Of a stretch of 37,949 nt of DNA, positions 29,615 to 37,558 are shown piece after piece. Positions within the stretch are counted from its first letter, which is position 1, and every line of letters begins with the position of its first letter. Source of the stretch: Acidimicrobiaceae bacterium (lineage in GTDB: Bacteria > Actinomycetota > Acidimicrobiia > Acidimicrobiales > RAAP-2); contig PLBM01000043.1 in NCBI GenBank assembly GCA_003134515.1, positions 194-38,142 on the forward strand, written 5' to 3'. Made by a program: the position numbers and the translations under genes. The notes under the pieces were generated by a model. It did not search any database and was not told the DNA's origin. It saw only the letters and a program-made list of their open reading frames with translations.

Positions 29615-30346
29615 TCACGTAGCGAGGAACTCCGCGATGACTAACGCTGCTGCTTCGGGAAAATTGTCAACCGTCGCCACGCCCAATGGCGACGGGACGT
29701 CTCGATACTCACCTTGGCGCACTCGTATGACGGGCACACCCACTCGCTGCGCAAGGGCTACGTCTTTATCGACGCGATCACCAATGATGAGCGACTCGCT
29801 CACTTCGAGACCCAGCGCCCGAGACAGCGCCTCTAACCCCACAGGATTGGGCTTTCGACACGACCGGCCTCCGAGTTCGTCCGTGATCACCACTGCGTCG
29901 AAGTAGTGCGCCACACCGAGGGACTGTAACTTCGCGCGCTGTAGGTCGGGATTGCCGTCGGTTAGACACGCAAGGAGGGTCCGACGAGAGAGGGCATCGA
30001 GGCTCTCAATCACCCCGTCATAACACGACATGGAGAGTGGCCGAAAATTGATGAAGGCCTCAACCAGCGGACCCCTTGCCGTGAGAACGTCGTTCGACGA
30101 ACATCCCAATGCCTCTAGCGTGTCGTCAATCGTTTTTCCAGTGTCCGAGCCACGCTTGAGGACGGACGTAAAGGCGTCTGCGAACGTGTTTCGATCGAAG
30201 CCAAGTGACGTCGCTCGCTCCGCGACCGCGCCAATAGCGCCGACAAGGAACGAGCGTTGAGCGTAGAGCGTGTCATCGAGATCCACGACCACTACTCCGC
30301 CGCTACGCGACCCCACCACTACCCACTCACCACGGCAGCACGCCAT
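29615..30346 (-). CDS. HAD-superfamily hydrolase
   Basis: GVVVVDLDDTLYAQRSFLVG, CLTDGNPDLQRAKLQSLG, SCRKPNPVGLEALSRALGLEVSESLIIGDRVDKDV. True start may be a GTG slightly downstream. Confidence 0.88.
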   Translation of the reverse strand: MACCRGEWVVVGSRSGGVVVVDLDDTLYAQRSFLVGAIGAVAERATSLGFDRNTFADAFTSVLKRGSDTGKTIDDTLEALGCSSNDVLTARGPLVEAFINFRPLSMSCYDGVIESLDALSRRTLLACLTDGNPDLQRAKLQSLGVAHYFDAVVITDELGGRSCRKPNPVGLEALSRALGLEVSESLIIGDRVDKDVALAQRVGVPVIRVRQGEYRDVPSPLGVATVDNFPEAAALVIAEFLAT

Positions 30347-31496
30347 TCGTGAAGTCGGGTTCTGGCAACGTCAAGAGGGCGTCAGACTCCGAACTGGAGA
30401 GAATCCGGGCTACTCGCAGCCCGGTCGTACCATCGCCGTAAGGACAGGCCAGGGCCGCGATTCGAGACGGTGCCTCACCCGTGGTGAAGCCACGGGCCGC
30501 CTCCAGCGCGGCGGCCACGCCACGATCGTGGGCGAGCGAGACAAGCACGGCCGAACCGTTCTCCACTCCTTCCCATCTCGGTGTCGAGCCACGCAAGATG
30601 ATGACGGGAACACCAAAGTACGCGGCCTCTTCCTGAAGACCTCCCGAGTCGGTTACGACAAGTCGGGCGTGGCGCAAGCGGTCGATGAATTCAAAGTAGC
30701 CAAGCGGCGGGCACCGAGCGACCTCGTTGGAGAGTTGCGCCTCAGCGCCCGCATTTTCGAGCTGTTGCTCTGTTCTTGGATGAACGGGAAAGAGTACCGG
30801 ACCCACGTGTAGTGAAAGTTCGTTGATCAACGACGTCAATCGGCGCAGTCGGATCGGGTCGTCAACATTGGTGGGCCGATGCGCCGTGACGAGAACGCCG
30901 TCGCGTTCATTAAGTGGGACGCATCCGTATCCGCTCGCCACCAAGGAGTCGATCGCCGAGTTGCCCACGACGAAGATCCGCTCGCTCGAGATGCCCTCGC
31001 GCAGCAGAAAGTTCCGCGAGCGCTCGGTCGGCGCAAAGTGCATCGAGGACCCCGCGCTGGCCACGCGACGATTTAACTCTTCAACGCTTCGCTCGTTAAA
31101 ACTTCGAAGTCCGGCTTCGAGATGGACAAAGGGAACTGAGTTTCGCCGGGCCGCCAAAACGTACGCGGGCACGGTTTGGGTGTCACCCAACGCCAGCACG
31201 ACGTCGGGTTCATATTCGCGAACCAGTCGCATCGCGCTGGCATGAATCTCTCCCACGCGTTGATCAGGATCGATCGAGAGCACGTTCGCCACGTCCACGG
31301 AAAGTTCCAGCGCGTTCGCGATCTCACCACTCATGTTTGATGACGAGTGCTGACCCGTGTCGACCGTGACCACGTGGTGACCAACGTCGCGCAGCGCGCG
31401 CACGACCGGGGCGAGCTTGACTATTTCGGGACGGGTGCCAAAGGGCACGAGAATGCGGCGAGTCCGGTCTGCCGCGTTCTGCCCTCGCTCACTCAT
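30327..31496 (-). CDS. wecB: UDP-N-acetylglucosamine 2-epimerase (WecB family)
   Basis: 389 aa; ILVPFGTRPEIVKLAPVVRAL, DTGQHSSSNM, HLEAGLRSF, VTDSGGLQEEAAYFGVPVIILRGSTPRWEGVENGSAVLV. Confidence 0.92.
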   Translation of the reverse strand: MSERGQNAADRTRRILVPFGTRPEIVKLAPVVRALRDVGHHVVTVDTGQHSSSNMSGEIANALELSVDVANVLSIDPDQRVGEIHASAMRLVREYEPDVVLALGDTQTVPAYVLAARRNSVPFVHLEAGLRSFNERSVEELNRRVASAGSSMHFAPTERSRNFLLREGISSERIFVVGNSAIDSLVASGYGCVPLNERDGVLVTAHRPTNVDDPIRLRRLTSLINELSLHVGPVLFPVHPRTEQQLENAGAEAQLSNEVARCPPLGYFEFIDRLRHARLVVTDSGGLQEEAAYFGVPVIILRGSTPRWEGVENGSAVLVSLAHDRGVAAALEAARGFTTGEAPSRIAALACPYGDGTTGLRVARILSSSESDALLTLPEPDFTNGVLPW

Positions 31497-33931
31497 CAGA
31501 CACCACTCGTTTCAAAGATGTCTTCAAAGTACCGGGTCATGCGCACGCCGACGTCGAAGTACAGCGGCGCGATGCGCCGCTCGGGTTCGAGAATGGCTTG
31601 GAGGTACGCGCCCACCACATCCGCGCCGGCGGCCAAAGTCAACGGGAGGCCGCCGGAGAACCGTGGATTGAGCTCGATGATCGACACCGCGCCCGAAGGG
31701 TCGACCATGCCTTGAATGTTGATCGGTCCGGTGATCCCCGTCGCGGCCACCACCTCGGCGCACACGCGGGTGACTTCGATTGAATCGAAGGTCAGTCCCT
31801 TGACCGAGATTCCCCCGCGCGTCTCTAAGCGCCACCGTGGCACGCACGTCACCACTTGGCCGTTTCGATCGACCAAAACATCGGCCGTGAACTCCTCACC
31901 CATCAGACGCGACTGCGCGATGAGTTCTTTGTCGTGGCGCATGATCCGGCGAAGAACCCGACGGTCATCGACCAGAGCGAAACCACGACTCCCCCGACCG
32001 CGACGAGGTTTGACGATCCACGGACCCGGTAAACGTCGGCTACCCCGCGAGGTCGTCGCGGTCGGAGGGTGCGCAATGCCGTACTCCTCCATCGCGAAGG
32101 CAAAGGCGGCTTTATCGAGACACCGCGCCACCGCCTCGAGGTCGGGAATCCAGGTCTTACAACCAAGGTCACTGAGGTCCAATGCGATCGCGGCGAGCGG
32201 CGCGTACTCCTCGGCCACGGTGCAGATGAGGGCTTGCACCTTAGTAGCTTCAACAATTGAAGTGAGCCCATCGGCGAAACTCTCGTCGTCAAAGCGCGGC
32301 ACGACGCCCGTTTGAACACCGGGCAGTTGAAAACCGGCGGCGAAGGGATCGGCGTCGAGGGCGACGACGCTGTGACCCGCGAAGAGCAGGGCTCGAATCA
32401 CGGCCAGGCCGGCCGGACCTCCGGCGCCACTCACCGCGACTCGAAAGGGTCCCCCGCGCCCGACACCTCCGACGAACTGCGGTTCGGACAACTTCTCGAT
32501 CGCCAGTCGTTTACCGTGTCGGCGTTTACCGTTCGAATCTGAGCGCTCCGGTACGATCGGCGCGGACACGTTGAGTTCGGGCACGGACAGCACCTCCAGT
32601 CGATGGGACAAGAGCCACGCTCGTGCCCACAGACGTAGCGCCGCCACGCCCGAGTTCGAGACCGGTTCCCACTGGCGCTTGGCAATCGCCTCCACCAGGG
32701 CCTGAATAACGTAGTCGTCCTCTTCTTCCGCCGCGACGCTGAGCAACGAGTACGCGTGGTAAGCGAGACCCTGATCGCCCAACTGCGTCACGAGTCGGAT
32801 CTTGACAGAGGATCTGTCCGTCGTGCTCTGCAAGAGTCGTTGGCACTTTCTCTCTCGACGTTGAGCGAACGGTCCAGTGGCAAACCTCTTGAGAGCGAGC
32901 ACGTCGAATGGTGGCAACGGACCGACGCCCTCGATGACTCTTCGCGACGACCATGCCCGACACCATAAGAGCAGCGAAGCGGTGCGATCGGTGGTAACTG
33001 GATCGTGTGCGTGAATGAAGACGGCCCTCGCTAACGCGTCCAGCACGGTGAAGTCTTCCTCGAAGACCGCGAGCGCCATAAGCGACGCCCCCTGGGTTTC
33101 TAATCCGTTCGCGGAGAGTGTCGCGATGGCGGCACAGCGCTGTTCGACGTTGAGAAAGCCAATGCGAAAGTCAATCCGGTTGGACTCACGGCGTCGAGCC
33201 AGCCAACGGCGCGTTTTCGCTGGCACAAAGTAGCGAATCAGCCAGCCCGTCAACGATCGCCGATTCGAACGCACGCGCTGCACCGCCGGGATGCGGTACC
33301 CCAGCCCGGCGTGGGACCAGGATTCGGGGCGACGCGCGGTATGTCGCCCGTAGCGATCTTGTTCGGCCCGTTCAGCCGTTGGCAGCGTCAGATACAACAA
33401 CAATAAAAAGCCCAGCAGAGTGGCGACGAAATTCCATACCGTGCCAACCCAGTCGTGAAACAACAGCAACGCGCCACGGCCGAACCAGAGACCGGCGACG
33501 CTCGATGCGGCCATTCGCCCAAGATTCAAGACAAACAGCATCGAGGCCGACACGATGTAGGCGACCACGGTATGGCTTCGCCGCCCTCTAAGAACAGCGA
33601 TGGCGAGGGTGCCCAGCGCGAGTATCCCCATGAGCGATGAGCACGAGGGCGAGATGAACGCCAAGATCGGCCGATGGCCCGGCGAGGCAATAAGCAGATT
33701 GTCACCGACCGCCAGGGTGACCCCACGAGCGCCAAAGAGACGAAACAGCCACGCCAACGAATCCAGCTCGACCCGGCGCATCGGGCCAATGAGCGTTTCA
33801 AAGAGTACGAGATAGCCAACGGTCAGAGCCCACAGTTCGCCCAGCACCGCCCACCGACGGCGCCGCGTGCCCGCCCTCGTCGACGCTCCCTGGTCAATGT
33901 CGTGGCGCGCCCGGGGATCGATCGTCGTCAT
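31496..33931 (-). CDS. Fusion protein: exosortase/archaeosortase-like membrane domain, helical linker, ATP-grasp domain
   Basis: 811 aa from MTTIDPR. N-terminus has four TM helices with SPSCSSLMGILALG (Cys), VLNLGRMAA (Arg), LLFHDWVGTVWNF (His). C-terminus VAVSGAGGPAGLAVIRAL...PWIVKPRRGRGSRGFALVDD...INIQGMVDPSGAVSIIELNPRFSGGLPL is ATP-grasp. Confidence 0.85.
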   Translation of the reverse strand: MTTIDPRARHDIDQGASTRAGTRRRRWAVLGELWALTVGYLVLFETLIGPMRRVELDSLAWLFRLFGARGVTLAVGDNLLIASPGHRPILAFISPSCSSLMGILALGTLAIAVLRGRRSHTVVAYIVSASMLFVLNLGRMAASSVAGLWFGRGALLLFHDWVGTVWNFVATLLGFLLLLYLTLPTAERAEQDRYGRHTARRPESWSHAGLGYRIPAVQRVRSNRRSLTGWLIRYFVPAKTRRWLARRRESNRIDFRIGFLNVEQRCAAIATLSANGLETQGASLMALAVFEEDFTVLDALARAVFIHAHDPVTTDRTASLLLWCRAWSSRRVIEGVGPLPPFDVLALKRFATGPFAQRRERKCQRLLQSTTDRSSVKIRLVTQLGDQGLAYHAYSLLSVAAEEEDDYVIQALVEAIAKRQWEPVSNSGVAALRLWARAWLLSHRLEVLSVPELNVSAPIVPERSDSNGKRRHGKRLAIEKLSEPQFVGGVGRGGPFRVAVSGAGGPAGLAVIRALLFAGHSVVALDADPFAAGFQLPGVQTGVVPRFDDESFADGLTSIVEATKVQALICTVAEEYAPLAAIALDLSDLGCKTWIPDLEAVARCLDKAAFAFAMEEYGIAHPPTATTSRGSRRLPGPWIVKPRRGRGSRGFALVDDRRVLRRIMRHDKELIAQSRLMGEEFTADVLVDRNGQVVTCVPRWRLETRGGISVKGLTFDSIEVTRVCAEVVAATGITGPINIQGMVDPSGAVSIIELNPRFSGGLPLTLAAGADVVGAYLQAILEPERRIAPLYFDVGVRMTRYFEDIFETSGV

Positions 33932-33938
33932 CACGGCT

Positions 33939-35471
33939 CTAGGTCGACTTGACTCGGGCGAACGTGCGCGAGCCGACCGCACTGATTTCGTCGAGTCCAC
34001 CCGAGCGCATCACCAAGCCAGTGGTGGCCATCAAGGCGCCTTCACTGGACTTGGTCTCCACGCGGGCGGCGTCGCTCGTGCGGCGACGCATCAGGGGATT
34101 ATTGACAATGGTCGTCACCGAGTAGGACGAACCCACCTCGCTTGAACGCGTGGTCTTCACCCACGAGTACGGGCGACCGAGCATGCCGTCGACGTACGCC
34201 CAGGTCGTAATGACGATGGACAGCGCAAAGCTCGGCAGGAAACCAATCAGGTGCCACGCGCCGCGCCGTTCGACGCGGCCGAGTAAGAGCCCCACCGTGA
34301 GTTCGGCCAAGGGGCCCAAGAACAACAACAAGGTGAGGGGCAGTAGCGCCACCGCCGGGATGTTCCCGATGCCAAAAAGTCGCGCGGCCGTGAGCACAAT
34401 GCCCAGGCCCGAGAGAACTGGAATGTGATAGATGAAGAGGAACATCACGAACTCGGCCTTTTCGCCCCAACTCAAATTTGGGCTGCGCAACGTCGGGATG
34501 AGGTAGTCCCGCGTGCACTTTTGGTGGCCCCGAGCCCATCGGTAGCGTTGCTTCCAAAATCGACGAGCGACGAGCACGGCCTCTTCGAAGTCGACGGCCG
34601 TGGGGTCGTAGCGAACGCGTCCGCCGGCTAACAGCACGCGAATCGTTAAGTCGGTGTCCTCGGTCACGGTCTCGGTGTTCCAGCCACCCAGTCGCACCAA
34701 GGTCGAACGGCGTACGGCGCAGTTGGCCCCGCCGTACGCCGGGAGTTCGTAAAGCGCCTGGCGACCGTACTCGTTGACGAGGTAGCCAGAGAGAAAATCG
34801 ATGAACACCACTCCGGCGAGTTGGCTCTCGTTGCCGTTCCTAATGACGCAACGACCCATCACACAGTCGACTCTCTCGTCAAGAAAATGACGTACCAGGC
34901 GGCGCAACACGTCACCGGCCGGTTCGTGATCGGCGTCGAACACGCAGATAATCTCGACGTCGACGAGCTCGAGCGCCGCGTTCAACGCACCGGACTTTCC
35001 CCCACCGGCCCCCGAGGGACGGTGGACCACCGTCAGTCGGCCGTCCAGTTCCGCCCAGTAGTCGAGCCTTTCGCCGGTGCCGTCGCTCGACCCGTCGTCC
35101 ACGATGATCAGTTGCAAACTCTCCGCGGGATAGTCCAGTCGAAAGAGCGCTCGCACGAGCTTGTCGACCACCAAGACTTCGTCCTTGCACCCCACAAAGA
35201 CCGCCACCGTGGGCACGTAGTCGCTCAAGCCCACGTCCGCGGCGTAGAGGTCTTTTTCCACCCAGCGCGCCGCCGAGATCGCAAAGCCCAAATGGCGGAC
35301 GAAGAAGAAGAAGAACACCACCATGAGACCCCAGGCCATAAACGCGGCGGTACGTCCAAGGCCAAAGTAGGCAATGAATCCCGCCGTAATGGCGGCGTAG
35401 ACCAGAATCGCGACGAAGTGACTCTTGGGCCGACCAGATGACGTCGGGCGTACGGCGCGCATCAATCGCAA
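33939..35471 (-). CDS. Processive GT2-family membrane glycosyltransferase (BcsA/PgaC/HAS-like)
   Basis: 510 aa; IIVDDGSSDGTGERL, CVFDADHEP, VTEDTDLTIRVLLAGG, RRFWKQRYRWARGHQKC (QxxRW), flanking TM helices. Confidence 0.92.
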   Translation of the reverse strand: MRLMRAVRPTSSGRPKSHFVAILVYAAITAGFIAYFGLGRTAAFMAWGLMVVFFFFFVRHLGFAISAARWVEKDLYAADVGLSDYVPTVAVFVGCKDEVLVVDKLVRALFRLDYPAESLQLIIVDDGSSDGTGERLDYWAELDGRLTVVHRPSGAGGGKSGALNAALELVDVEIICVFDADHEPAGDVLRRLVRHFLDERVDCVMGRCVIRNGNESQLAGVVFIDFLSGYLVNEYGRQALYELPAYGGANCAVRRSTLVRLGGWNTETVTEDTDLTIRVLLAGGRVRYDPTAVDFEEAVLVARRFWKQRYRWARGHQKCTRDYLIPTLRSPNLSWGEKAEFVMFLFIYHIPVLSGLGIVLTAARLFGIGNIPAVALLPLTLLLFLGPLAELTVGLLLGRVERRGAWHLIGFLPSFALSIVITTWAYVDGMLGRPYSWVKTTRSSEVGSSYSVTTIVNNPLMRRRTSDAARVETKSSEGALMATTGLVMRSGGLDEISAVGSRTFARVKST

Positions 35472-35476
35472 CAGTT

Positions 35477-36175
35477 CTAGCCCGACGTCGTCAGCCGTTG
35501 CAGGATCTCTTCGGCCGACGCGTGCACGTCAATGTAATCGTCGAGAATCGAACGAGGCGAGCCCATGTCCCAGACGAAGCGCACGGGCACAAAGGCCTCG
35601 GCCAGAACGACGCGCGCGAACGCGCCCCAGTGGCGAGCCGAGGCCGCGATCGCGTCAAGTTGGACCGACTCAGCGTTTACTTGGGACTTGTGGCACGTCA
35701 GGGCCGAGAGCTTGGCGCCGAGATGGTCACTGATGTCGACGAAGATCGTTGGCTCAAATCGGGTGGTCGACGGCGACTGATAGTAGAGAATTCGAGACGT
35801 GCGTCGTCCCGCCGAGACGGTAGCCGCTGCCACGATTCGATGGTCTTGGTGGGCGTCATCGGGCGCGTGCACGTAGATGACGTCGGGGCGCACCGCGTCC
35901 ATGACGGCTTCGATGCGATCAATCGTCGTGTGATCGTCGGGAATCCCGCAGTCCACAAAGCCACCCCAGTAAAGCGATGCCCCCAGACTCTTGGCCGACG
36001 CCTCTTGCTCGAGTTCACGGAGATTGCCCAAGTAATTTCTCGACTGCTCGCCGCCGGACATGACGAGAATGCTCGTCGAATGACCCATCGCGCGGTGCGC
36101 CGAGAGCGCGCCGGCGCAACCTAGCTCCACGTCGTCGGGATGACTTCCAATTGCGAGCACACTTTTTACAGTCAC
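35477..36175 (-). CDS. PIG-L/LmbE family N-acetylglucosamine deacetylase-like
   Basis: GTG start: VTVKSVLAIGSHPDDVELGCAGALSAHRAMGHSTSILVMSGGEQ; HAPDDAHQDHRIVAAATVSAGR. GTGA overlap with the upstream gene. Confidence 0.9.
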   Translation of the reverse strand: MTVKSVLAIGSHPDDVELGCAGALSAHRAMGHSTSILVMSGGEQSRNYLGNLRELEQEASAKSLGASLYWGGFVDCGIPDDHTTIDRIEAVMDAVRPDVIYVHAPDDAHQDHRIVAAATVSAGRRTSRILYYQSPSTTRFEPTIFVDISDHLGAKLSALTCHKSQVNAESVQLDAIAASARHWGAFARVVLAEAFVPVRFVWDMGSPRSILDDYIDVHASAEEILQRLTTSG

Positions 36176-36675
36176 GGTGTTGCCTTCCTTTTCGCGGTGC
36201 GTCGAATCACGACCACACCGATAAGAACTCCGAGGCCGATCGCGATGACGAGACTCAGGCCTAAGGGATCGACCGGGAGCGATGAGCCAGAACACGCAGT
36301 ACTCGTCGCCGTCGCCGTCGCGGATTGACCTTCCACCGTCCAGGTGATCGATTGGTTGTGCGCCAGCACATTAAAGGCGTTCGTCACCGTACCGGTAATG
36401 AAACTCGTTGGCTGGTTGCCGTCGTACCTCGACGGAGTGACCTGATTGGAACTCCCGTCGGGGTAATTGGCGGCCGTTCCGGAATTTGAGTAGCCAAAGT
36501 ACGCGGTGAAATTGTGACCAGTATCCAGCGTCACGCACGTCACCGTGGGCACCACGTTCGCCGTAGCGGCGGCGGCTGGCGGTGACGCCGCGATGAGCGT
36601 CGCAGCCAACAGCAACGCCGTGACGCCCAAGAGACTGGAAACCTGCTTCGTTGGCGACAACCAGACTTGACTCAT
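36172..36675 (-). CDS. Secreted protein with C-terminal tripartite sorting-like tail; candidate exosortase substrate
   Basis: 167 aa; signal peptide (LLGVTALLLAATLIAASPPAAAA), central TAYFGYSNSG...NQPTSFITGTVTNAFNV region, tail LPVDPLGLSLVIAIGLGVLIGVVVIRRTAKRKATP (motif + TM + basic). Confidence 0.72.
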   Translation of the reverse strand: MSQVWLSPTKQVSSLLGVTALLLAATLIAASPPAAAATANVVPTVTCVTLDTGHNFTAYFGYSNSGTAANYPDGSSNQVTPSRYDGNQPTSFITGTVTNAFNVLAHNQSITWTVEGQSATATATSTACSGSSLPVDPLGLSLVIAIGLGVLIGVVVIRRTAKRKATP

Positions 36676-36958
36676 GTGTCTTCTCTCTGAAGACCCGGCC
36701 CAGATGGCTAGAGGTTCGTGATCTAACAGTTACTTAATCTCCTCATCCTCCTAAGTCCCGTTAGTTTCATTTCCCTCTGGAATAATCGCTCCAGGGCCAA
36801 AATGAACAATTGGAACTACGTGGTGTACTAGTAAACGGCGCCGTCCCTTCGACGTCTCGCCAATACTCAGGGTTTACGCAGGAATGGTTCAGAACCAATG
36901 CGAACTCCGAGGTAGTTTCTACATTGAAGATTCCCTACAAGATCGTCGGAGGTGTACC

Positions 36959-37558
36959 TTGCGCGCACGAATTCATCCCTTGACCATGACCCTCTGGAGC
37001 AGAGTCGTCAGTTCTTCCACGGCGTTGGCGATCGTCGCGGCGCTCGGCGTCTGGGGCCTCTCGGGACCGACGGTCTCGTCCGCTTCGACGTCGTCGTGCA
37101 CGACGTCGGACGTGGTGGTGTGGCTCAACACCTCGGGCAGCGGCGCGGCCGGAAGCGCCTACTACAACCTCAATTTCACCAATCTCTCGTCACACTCGTG
37201 CACCCTTGAGGGATATCCCGGCGTGTCAGGACTCTCGCTCGCGAGTACGCAACTCGGCAGTTCCGCCGCGCGCAACGCCGCGCACACCGCGACGCTCATC
37301 ACGCTGGCTAGTGCGCATACCGCGACGGGGCTGGCCGCGTCGAACAGCCACAACTCGGCCACAGCAATTCTTCAAATAACTGACGTGAGTAATTTTTCCG
37401 CTTCGATTTGCGGTCAAGTCACAGCCGCGGGACTACGCGTCTATCCCCCGGGTCAAAGCGTGGCGAAGGTGATTCCCTACCCCTTCGTGGGTTGCTCGAA
37501 GAGTGGATCACGTTACCTACACATCGAGGCCATCCAGAAGTACGTCGCGACGCAGTGA
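36959..37558 (+). CDS. Secreted DUF4232-like protein
   Basis: Signal peptide; LNFTNLSSHSCTLEGYPGVSGLSL, YPPGQSVAKVIPYPFVGCSKSG. GGAGG at 36948-36952 precedes an in-frame TTG at 36959; ATG at 36986 is an alternative. Confidence 0.7.
   Translation: MRARIHPLTMTLWSRVVSSSTALAIVAALGVWGLSGPTVSSASTSSCTTSDVVVWLNTSGSGAAGSAYYNLNFTNLSSHSCTLEGYPGVSGLSLASTQLGSSAARNAAHTATLITLASAHTATGLAASNSHNSATAILQITDVSNFSASICGQVTAAGLRVYPPGQSVAKVIPYPFVGCSKSGSRYLHIEAIQKYVATQ

Follow-up and report, generated by a model that had tools for sequence, protein, structure and literature searches.

A compact actinobacterial exosortase operon and its probable dedicated substrate with an LP-x4-G tail

Introduction

Work on archaeosortases and exosortases describes cleavage of the substrate near a motif and transfer to a nucleophile (PMC11980579; PMC1569441). 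The original exosortase paper leaves this nucleophile unknown (PMC1569441), and the acceptor of bacterial exosortases is a long-standing question that is awkward to test in PEP-CTERM genomes with their many targets. The C-terminal linking sugar of type IX secretion, a product of the Wbp/Vim pathway, is an amino sugar that is deacetylated, amino-acylated and joined to the C-terminus of the protein by an amide bond. A deacetylase and an amino-acid transfer take part in this pathway, as does, in T. forsythia, an epimerase that is so far a prediction; the authors of that work proposed that PEP-CTERM systems might operate along comparable lines (PMC7468200). In Firmicutes, for example Lactiplantibacillus plantarum, the XrtG/Firmicu-CTERM system (PMC12854382) combines a Gram-positive exosortase with a CTERM-tailed target and glycosyltransferases, as does the locus analysed here, which lies within a 37,949-nucleotide stretch of an Acidimicrobiaceae genome (the window). 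The system is compact, pairing one to few substrates and a fixed motif with a constant set of sugar enzymes, and culturable members of Geodermatophilus, Blastococcus, Actinoplanes and Micromonospora carry it. The exosortase subtype and the LP-x4-G tail documented here are covered by no NCBIfam model, and a literature search of incomplete coverage found no account of the operon.

Results

The substrate gene is located on the minus strand of the window (36172..36675), where the sequence and the list of open reading frames give an ATG start and a product of 167 aa. By inspection of the sequence, residues 1-39 (36559..36675) form a Sec-type signal peptide with K10, a hydrophobic core and a predicted junction of AAA with TA. 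The ectodomain is an Ig-like beta-domain with conserved Cys47 and Cys128, which AlphaFold, run with 24 homologues, models as a beta-sandwich at residues 41-127 (pLDDT mostly >90), followed by a linker that carries the motif at low confidence and a helix at 137-164; a fold search with the beta-domain returned no match below E 0.001. The tail reads LPVDPLG-LSLVIAIGLGVLIGVVVI-RRTAKRKATP, such that the core LPVDPLG (residues 133-139; 36259-36279) is followed by the transmembrane (TM) segment LSLVIAIGLGVLIGVVVI (residues ~140-157; 36205..36258), placed from the sequence and the model, and by the basic cytoplasmic tail RRTAKRKATP (residues 158-167; 36175-36204), which extends with its stop codon to 36172. 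The signal peptide, the short extracellular domain and the LPVDPLG-TM-RRTAKRK tail described in the initial annotation are therefore all present, the tail at exactly 36175-36279, and together they make up the architecture of the CTERM class, as judged from sequence and model with the signal peptide assigned by eye. A divergent gene for a secreted DUF4232 protein is located upstream of the substrate gene (36884-37558, plus strand).

The TGA stop of the substrate gene overlaps the GTG start of a gene for a PIG-L/LmbE-type N-deacetylase at 36175, making the substrate gene the first of an operon. The deacetylase gene (35477..36175; all minus strand), whose HPDD and HQDHR motifs are intact, is followed by genes for a GT2 membrane glycosyltransferase (33939..35471; DDGSSD, DADHEP, TEDTDL and QRYRW), an 834-aa fusion of an exosortase, a helical HEAT-like middle part and an ATP-grasp ligase (31496..34000; assigned by profiles and AlphaFold), a non-hydrolysing UDP-GlcNAc 2-epimerase of the WecB type (30327..31496; above the curated cut-off) and a HAD-family phosphatase (29615..30346; profile matches). 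The QRYRW motif of the GT2 enzyme is of the processive-synthase type, and the nearest NCBIfam model is PgaC, which the enzyme matches below the cut-off.

The exosortase-like enzyme that the initial annotation had placed in the same operon is indeed encoded there, but constitutes only the N-terminal ~200 aa of the fusion, ahead of the helical repeats and the C-terminal ATP-grasp domain. It scores 30.2 bits with TIGR04178, for which the cut-off is 23 (relatives, 30-44 bits), and falls short of Pfam PF09721 (14.3 versus 25.7 bits); we therefore used TIGR04178 together with our own profiles, as PF09721 misses the window enzyme in the genome. In addition to this signature, the enzyme has the conserved Cys, Arg and His of the exosortase superfamily within membrane helices (Cys at 33641-33643, Arg at 33515-33517 and His at 33455-33457 by alignment, minus strand), and C104, R146 and H166 are invariant in exosortase alignments of 15 and 21 sequences. 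The AlphaFold model of the fusion is credible for the helical middle and the ATP-grasp part and has low confidence for the exosortase part, for which a profile search found no related solved structure. We note that a conserved linker, RAEQDRxGRHTA, comes after the exosortase in several families.

Alignment of the tails from orthologous loci establishes that the motif is conserved: the 12-residue block SSLPVDPLGLSL (36250..36285, minus strand) is the longest invariant run in five orthologues from five species. Invariant columns amount to 30 of 86 (~35%) in the ectodomain and 2 of 16 in the TM segment, and an invariant run this long was reached in 39 of 100,000 column shuffles. The codons of SSLPVDPLGLSL have many synonymous differences among the orthologues, which indicates that the constraint acts on the protein. 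A search for further tails of this kind found the LPVDPLG tail to be single in the window genome; as this genome is 83% complete, additional substrates could be missed.

The congeneric genome G006 (L017) also has a TIGR04178 exosortase, in an unfused operon that has one gene each for the exosortase, the ATP-grasp ligase and a relative of the middle part, and a neighbouring secreted protein of 802 aa ends ...TVDEPLAGAIG-TM-KRR; the arrangement is the same in a second congener, G146, with the neighbouring tail TSIDAPLAGSIG. A secreted 278-aa protein ending SAGGALGLLTMGALGAGIFAVGMWSARRRHRR is also encoded near the G006 operon (L017:5907-6743) and may be a second substrate. Another genome, G048, which has another exosortase type, encodes a secreted protein with the tail VPEAPFAALLPV-TM-RGRK (L018:11189-11803).

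Co-occurrence of the substrate with the exosortase gene was evident at two scales. Among 37 genomes of the window's genus, TIGR04178 was found in five, and the substrate in four of these five (the exception being G006) and in none of the 32 negative genomes; a lone weak substrate match (E 0.006, in G012) spans just residues 19-46, the signal-peptide region. One contig labelled Acidobacteria (L048, JABBNY010000151.1) has an Acidimicrobiaceae-type operon; it appears identical to contig C225 of G035, a genome of the window's genus, and its label probably reflects a mislabelled bin. Since a phylum-wide even sample was too thin for co-occurrence, with three clear enzyme matches, we used as an independent sample 200 genomes of the order of Geodermatophilus obscurus, 17 of which match the exosortase profile. 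At E<=1e-6, the tail profile matched 13 of these 17 genomes and none of the 183 exosortase-negative genomes (Fisher p 2.7e-17, relatedness ignored). Some of the genomes counted are related to one another, and the two genes, being linked in an operon, are not gained and lost independently. Weaker tail matches (1e-5 to 1e-3) in exosortase-negative genomes cover mostly the helix part only, and tails number one to a few per genome. In the phylum-wide sample, further proteins contain the beta-domain, and those inspected are without the tail.

With the GT2 alignment as query, 80 named actinobacterial loci were fetched. The exosortase is found beside GT2 in 77 of them, and where the contig is long enough, almost all of these also have the genes for PIG-L, ATP-grasp, epimerase and HAD. 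The operon ranges over Geodermatophilaceae, Micromonosporaceae, Catenulispora, Pseudonocardia and Acidimicrobiia, and a tailed protein is usually encoded next to it; in three operons (L098, L102, L122) the detectors used found none. The substrate gene is nearly always directly 5' of PIG-L, even where the pair sits at the other end of the operon. Tandem substrate duplicates precede PIG-L in L060, L064, L067 and L075, where both copies have the motif or a close form.

Across homologous substrates, C47, Y62, N77, F92, G95, W112, P134 and G139 are invariant (P134 and G139 in the 24-row substrate alignment). These homologues carry tails such as LPADGNG, LPEEGNG and LPAGGNG, and 54 of the 57 that reach the tail fit C-x(3-6)-[LMV]P-x4-G. 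The motif had been called novel, and neither PEP nor LPXTG; it is neither, but it is not isolated, as the LPADGNG and LPAGGNG tails of the homologues identify PVDPLG as the form that a wider [LM]P-x4-G tail takes in the window's genus. In distant operons the ectodomains are unrelated (one is a 'choice-of-anchor P' domain) and the tails are of the xPVGAVGG type, and the P-x4-G spacing is kept. Substrate paralogues with LPADGNG or LPAAGNG tails also occur with no operon nearby (L168-L173, from Geodermatophilus, Modestobacter and Actinoplanes), and in Geodermatophilus saharensis the sole detected substrate-type protein is encoded on a different contig than the exosortase. Since these copies far from the operon keep the tail, it is very likely that the exosortase acts in trans.

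The tail class follows the enzyme. The four tail classes require three changes on the exosortase tree, which is the possible minimum, and the window enzyme groups with those of Geodermatophilaceae and Micromonosporaceae and not with most other Acidimicrobiia loci. The enzymes of G006 and G146 belong to a different lineage and accompany a different tail, which fits two separate acquisitions. Moreover, in G513 a homologous beta-domain protein (L174:7345-9686) overlaps the gene of a different, EpsH-like exosortase, part of whose 3' end is masked, and has the tail VPDVPAAVLGG. Thus, the motif follows the enzyme rather than the domain.

Discussion

The restriction of the tail to genomes with the enzyme and the sugar-enzyme operon across actinobacteria makes it very probable that a distinct actinobacterial exosortase has the 167-aa protein as its dedicated surface substrate. 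The initial annotation had proposed it as the target of the exosortase-like enzyme of its operon, a proposal that gains support from the operon overlap, the conservation of the motif, its co-occurrence with the enzyme and the agreement of tail class with the enzyme tree.

By analogy, the substrate would be exported by Sec and held in the membrane by its C-terminal helix, and the exosortase, with its Cys, Arg and His, would recognise LP-x4-G just outside the membrane and cut there, passing the new C-terminus to an acceptor, as expected from what is known of exosortases and archaeosortases. Judging from the operon content only, the operon itself might supply this acceptor in the form of a sugar or glycan that bears an amine: the epimerase would provide a ManNAc-type sugar, which GT2 would polymerise or transfer, PIG-L would free the amine, and the ATP-grasp ligase may attach an amino acid. 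The beta-domain would then be displayed in covalent linkage to a glycan or glycolipid. PIG-L is the deacetylase of eukaryotic GPI-anchor synthesis. We tentatively suggest that the six-gene operon might be a full bacterial equivalent of GPI anchoring, in which the enzymes build an amine-bearing, perhaps amino-acylated sugar acceptor to which the exosortase joins the substrate C-terminus. If true, the nucleophile of a bacterial exosortase would be the product of its own operon.

A rival that concerns the mechanism alone, and is rather unlikely in our estimate, is that the exosortase only cleaves and releases the substrate, which would bind the polysaccharide of the operon non-covalently. Such an arrangement would agree with Methylobacillus, where the genes next to the exosortase gene epsH do not require it to make their exopolysaccharide (PMC1569441), and the acceptor is unproven for bacterial exosortases. 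Archaeosortase substrates, by contrast, become lipid-linked (summarised in PMC11980579), and the tightest linkage of the substrate gene, even in reordered operons, is with the deacetylase gene, which may point to a chemical step in common without proving it.

We regard as improbable the reading in which the tail is the plain anchor of an ordinary single-pass membrane protein and the exosortase has another target. A C-terminal TM helix followed by Arg and Lys is also a common anchor design, but a plain anchor leaves unexplained why a 12-residue block is invariant beside a helix that varies (2/16 columns invariant), why P and G are invariant across families, and why the tail is absent from the 183 exosortase-negative genomes. 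A divergent LPXTG-type signal cut by the one sortase (PF04203) of the window genome is very improbable, despite the resemblance of LPADG and LPAGG in relatives to LPXTG, and we reject the sortase as cognate enzyme, since it does not track the substrate (25 of the 37 genus genomes have a sortase, most of them no substrate, and G035 has the substrate with no sortase detected), the tails in related exosortase operons, xPVGAVGG or VDEPLAG, do not resemble LPXTG, and the substrate gene sits in an exosortase operon rather than a sortase operon.

Among known systems, the best-scoring NCBIfam subtypes after the generic signature are exosortases S (NF033767), R, P and X, and none of the S, R, P, X and G subtype models reaches its cut-off (XrtS, <=43 bits versus 145). 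The tail models for CTERM proteins gave no match to the substrates of the window, Geodermatophilus or Actinoplanes, for which the only match was to a MYXO-CTERM protein family (12 bits versus 65). As in a CTERM class, the motif is conserved and co-distributed with its enzyme. The XrtG/Firmicu-CTERM system differs in that its model is matched weakly and by one relative (16.8 bits versus a cut-off of 102.75), whereas the window operon has PIG-L, ATP-grasp, epimerase and HAD genes and an LP-x4-G motif. LPXTG substrates of sortases share an LP-containing motif, a TM helix and a basic tail with the window protein, which is set apart by the lack of Thr-Gly in LPVDPLG, by an unrelated enzyme and by the independent distribution of sortases. 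PorU of type IX secretion is an unrelated sortase. The type IX linking sugar is an analogy for the acceptor only, and its pathway has a CE4-type deacetylase (PMC7468200) where the window operon has PIG-L and ATP-grasp. With PEP-CTERM/EpsH (XrtA) the window system shares the tripartite tail, a Cys-Arg-His exosortase and nearby polysaccharide and deacetylase genes, but it falls outside this class: it has LPVDPLG in place of the PEP motif, its substrates number one or a few and not many (the window genome has one such tail), the host is of Gram-positive type, and the exosortase domain is short (~200 aa) and, in the window, joined to ATP-grasp. The system is an exosortase/tripartite-tail variant that occurs in culturable actinomycetes and has one or few dedicated substrates, and its operon may build whatever the substrate is attached to.
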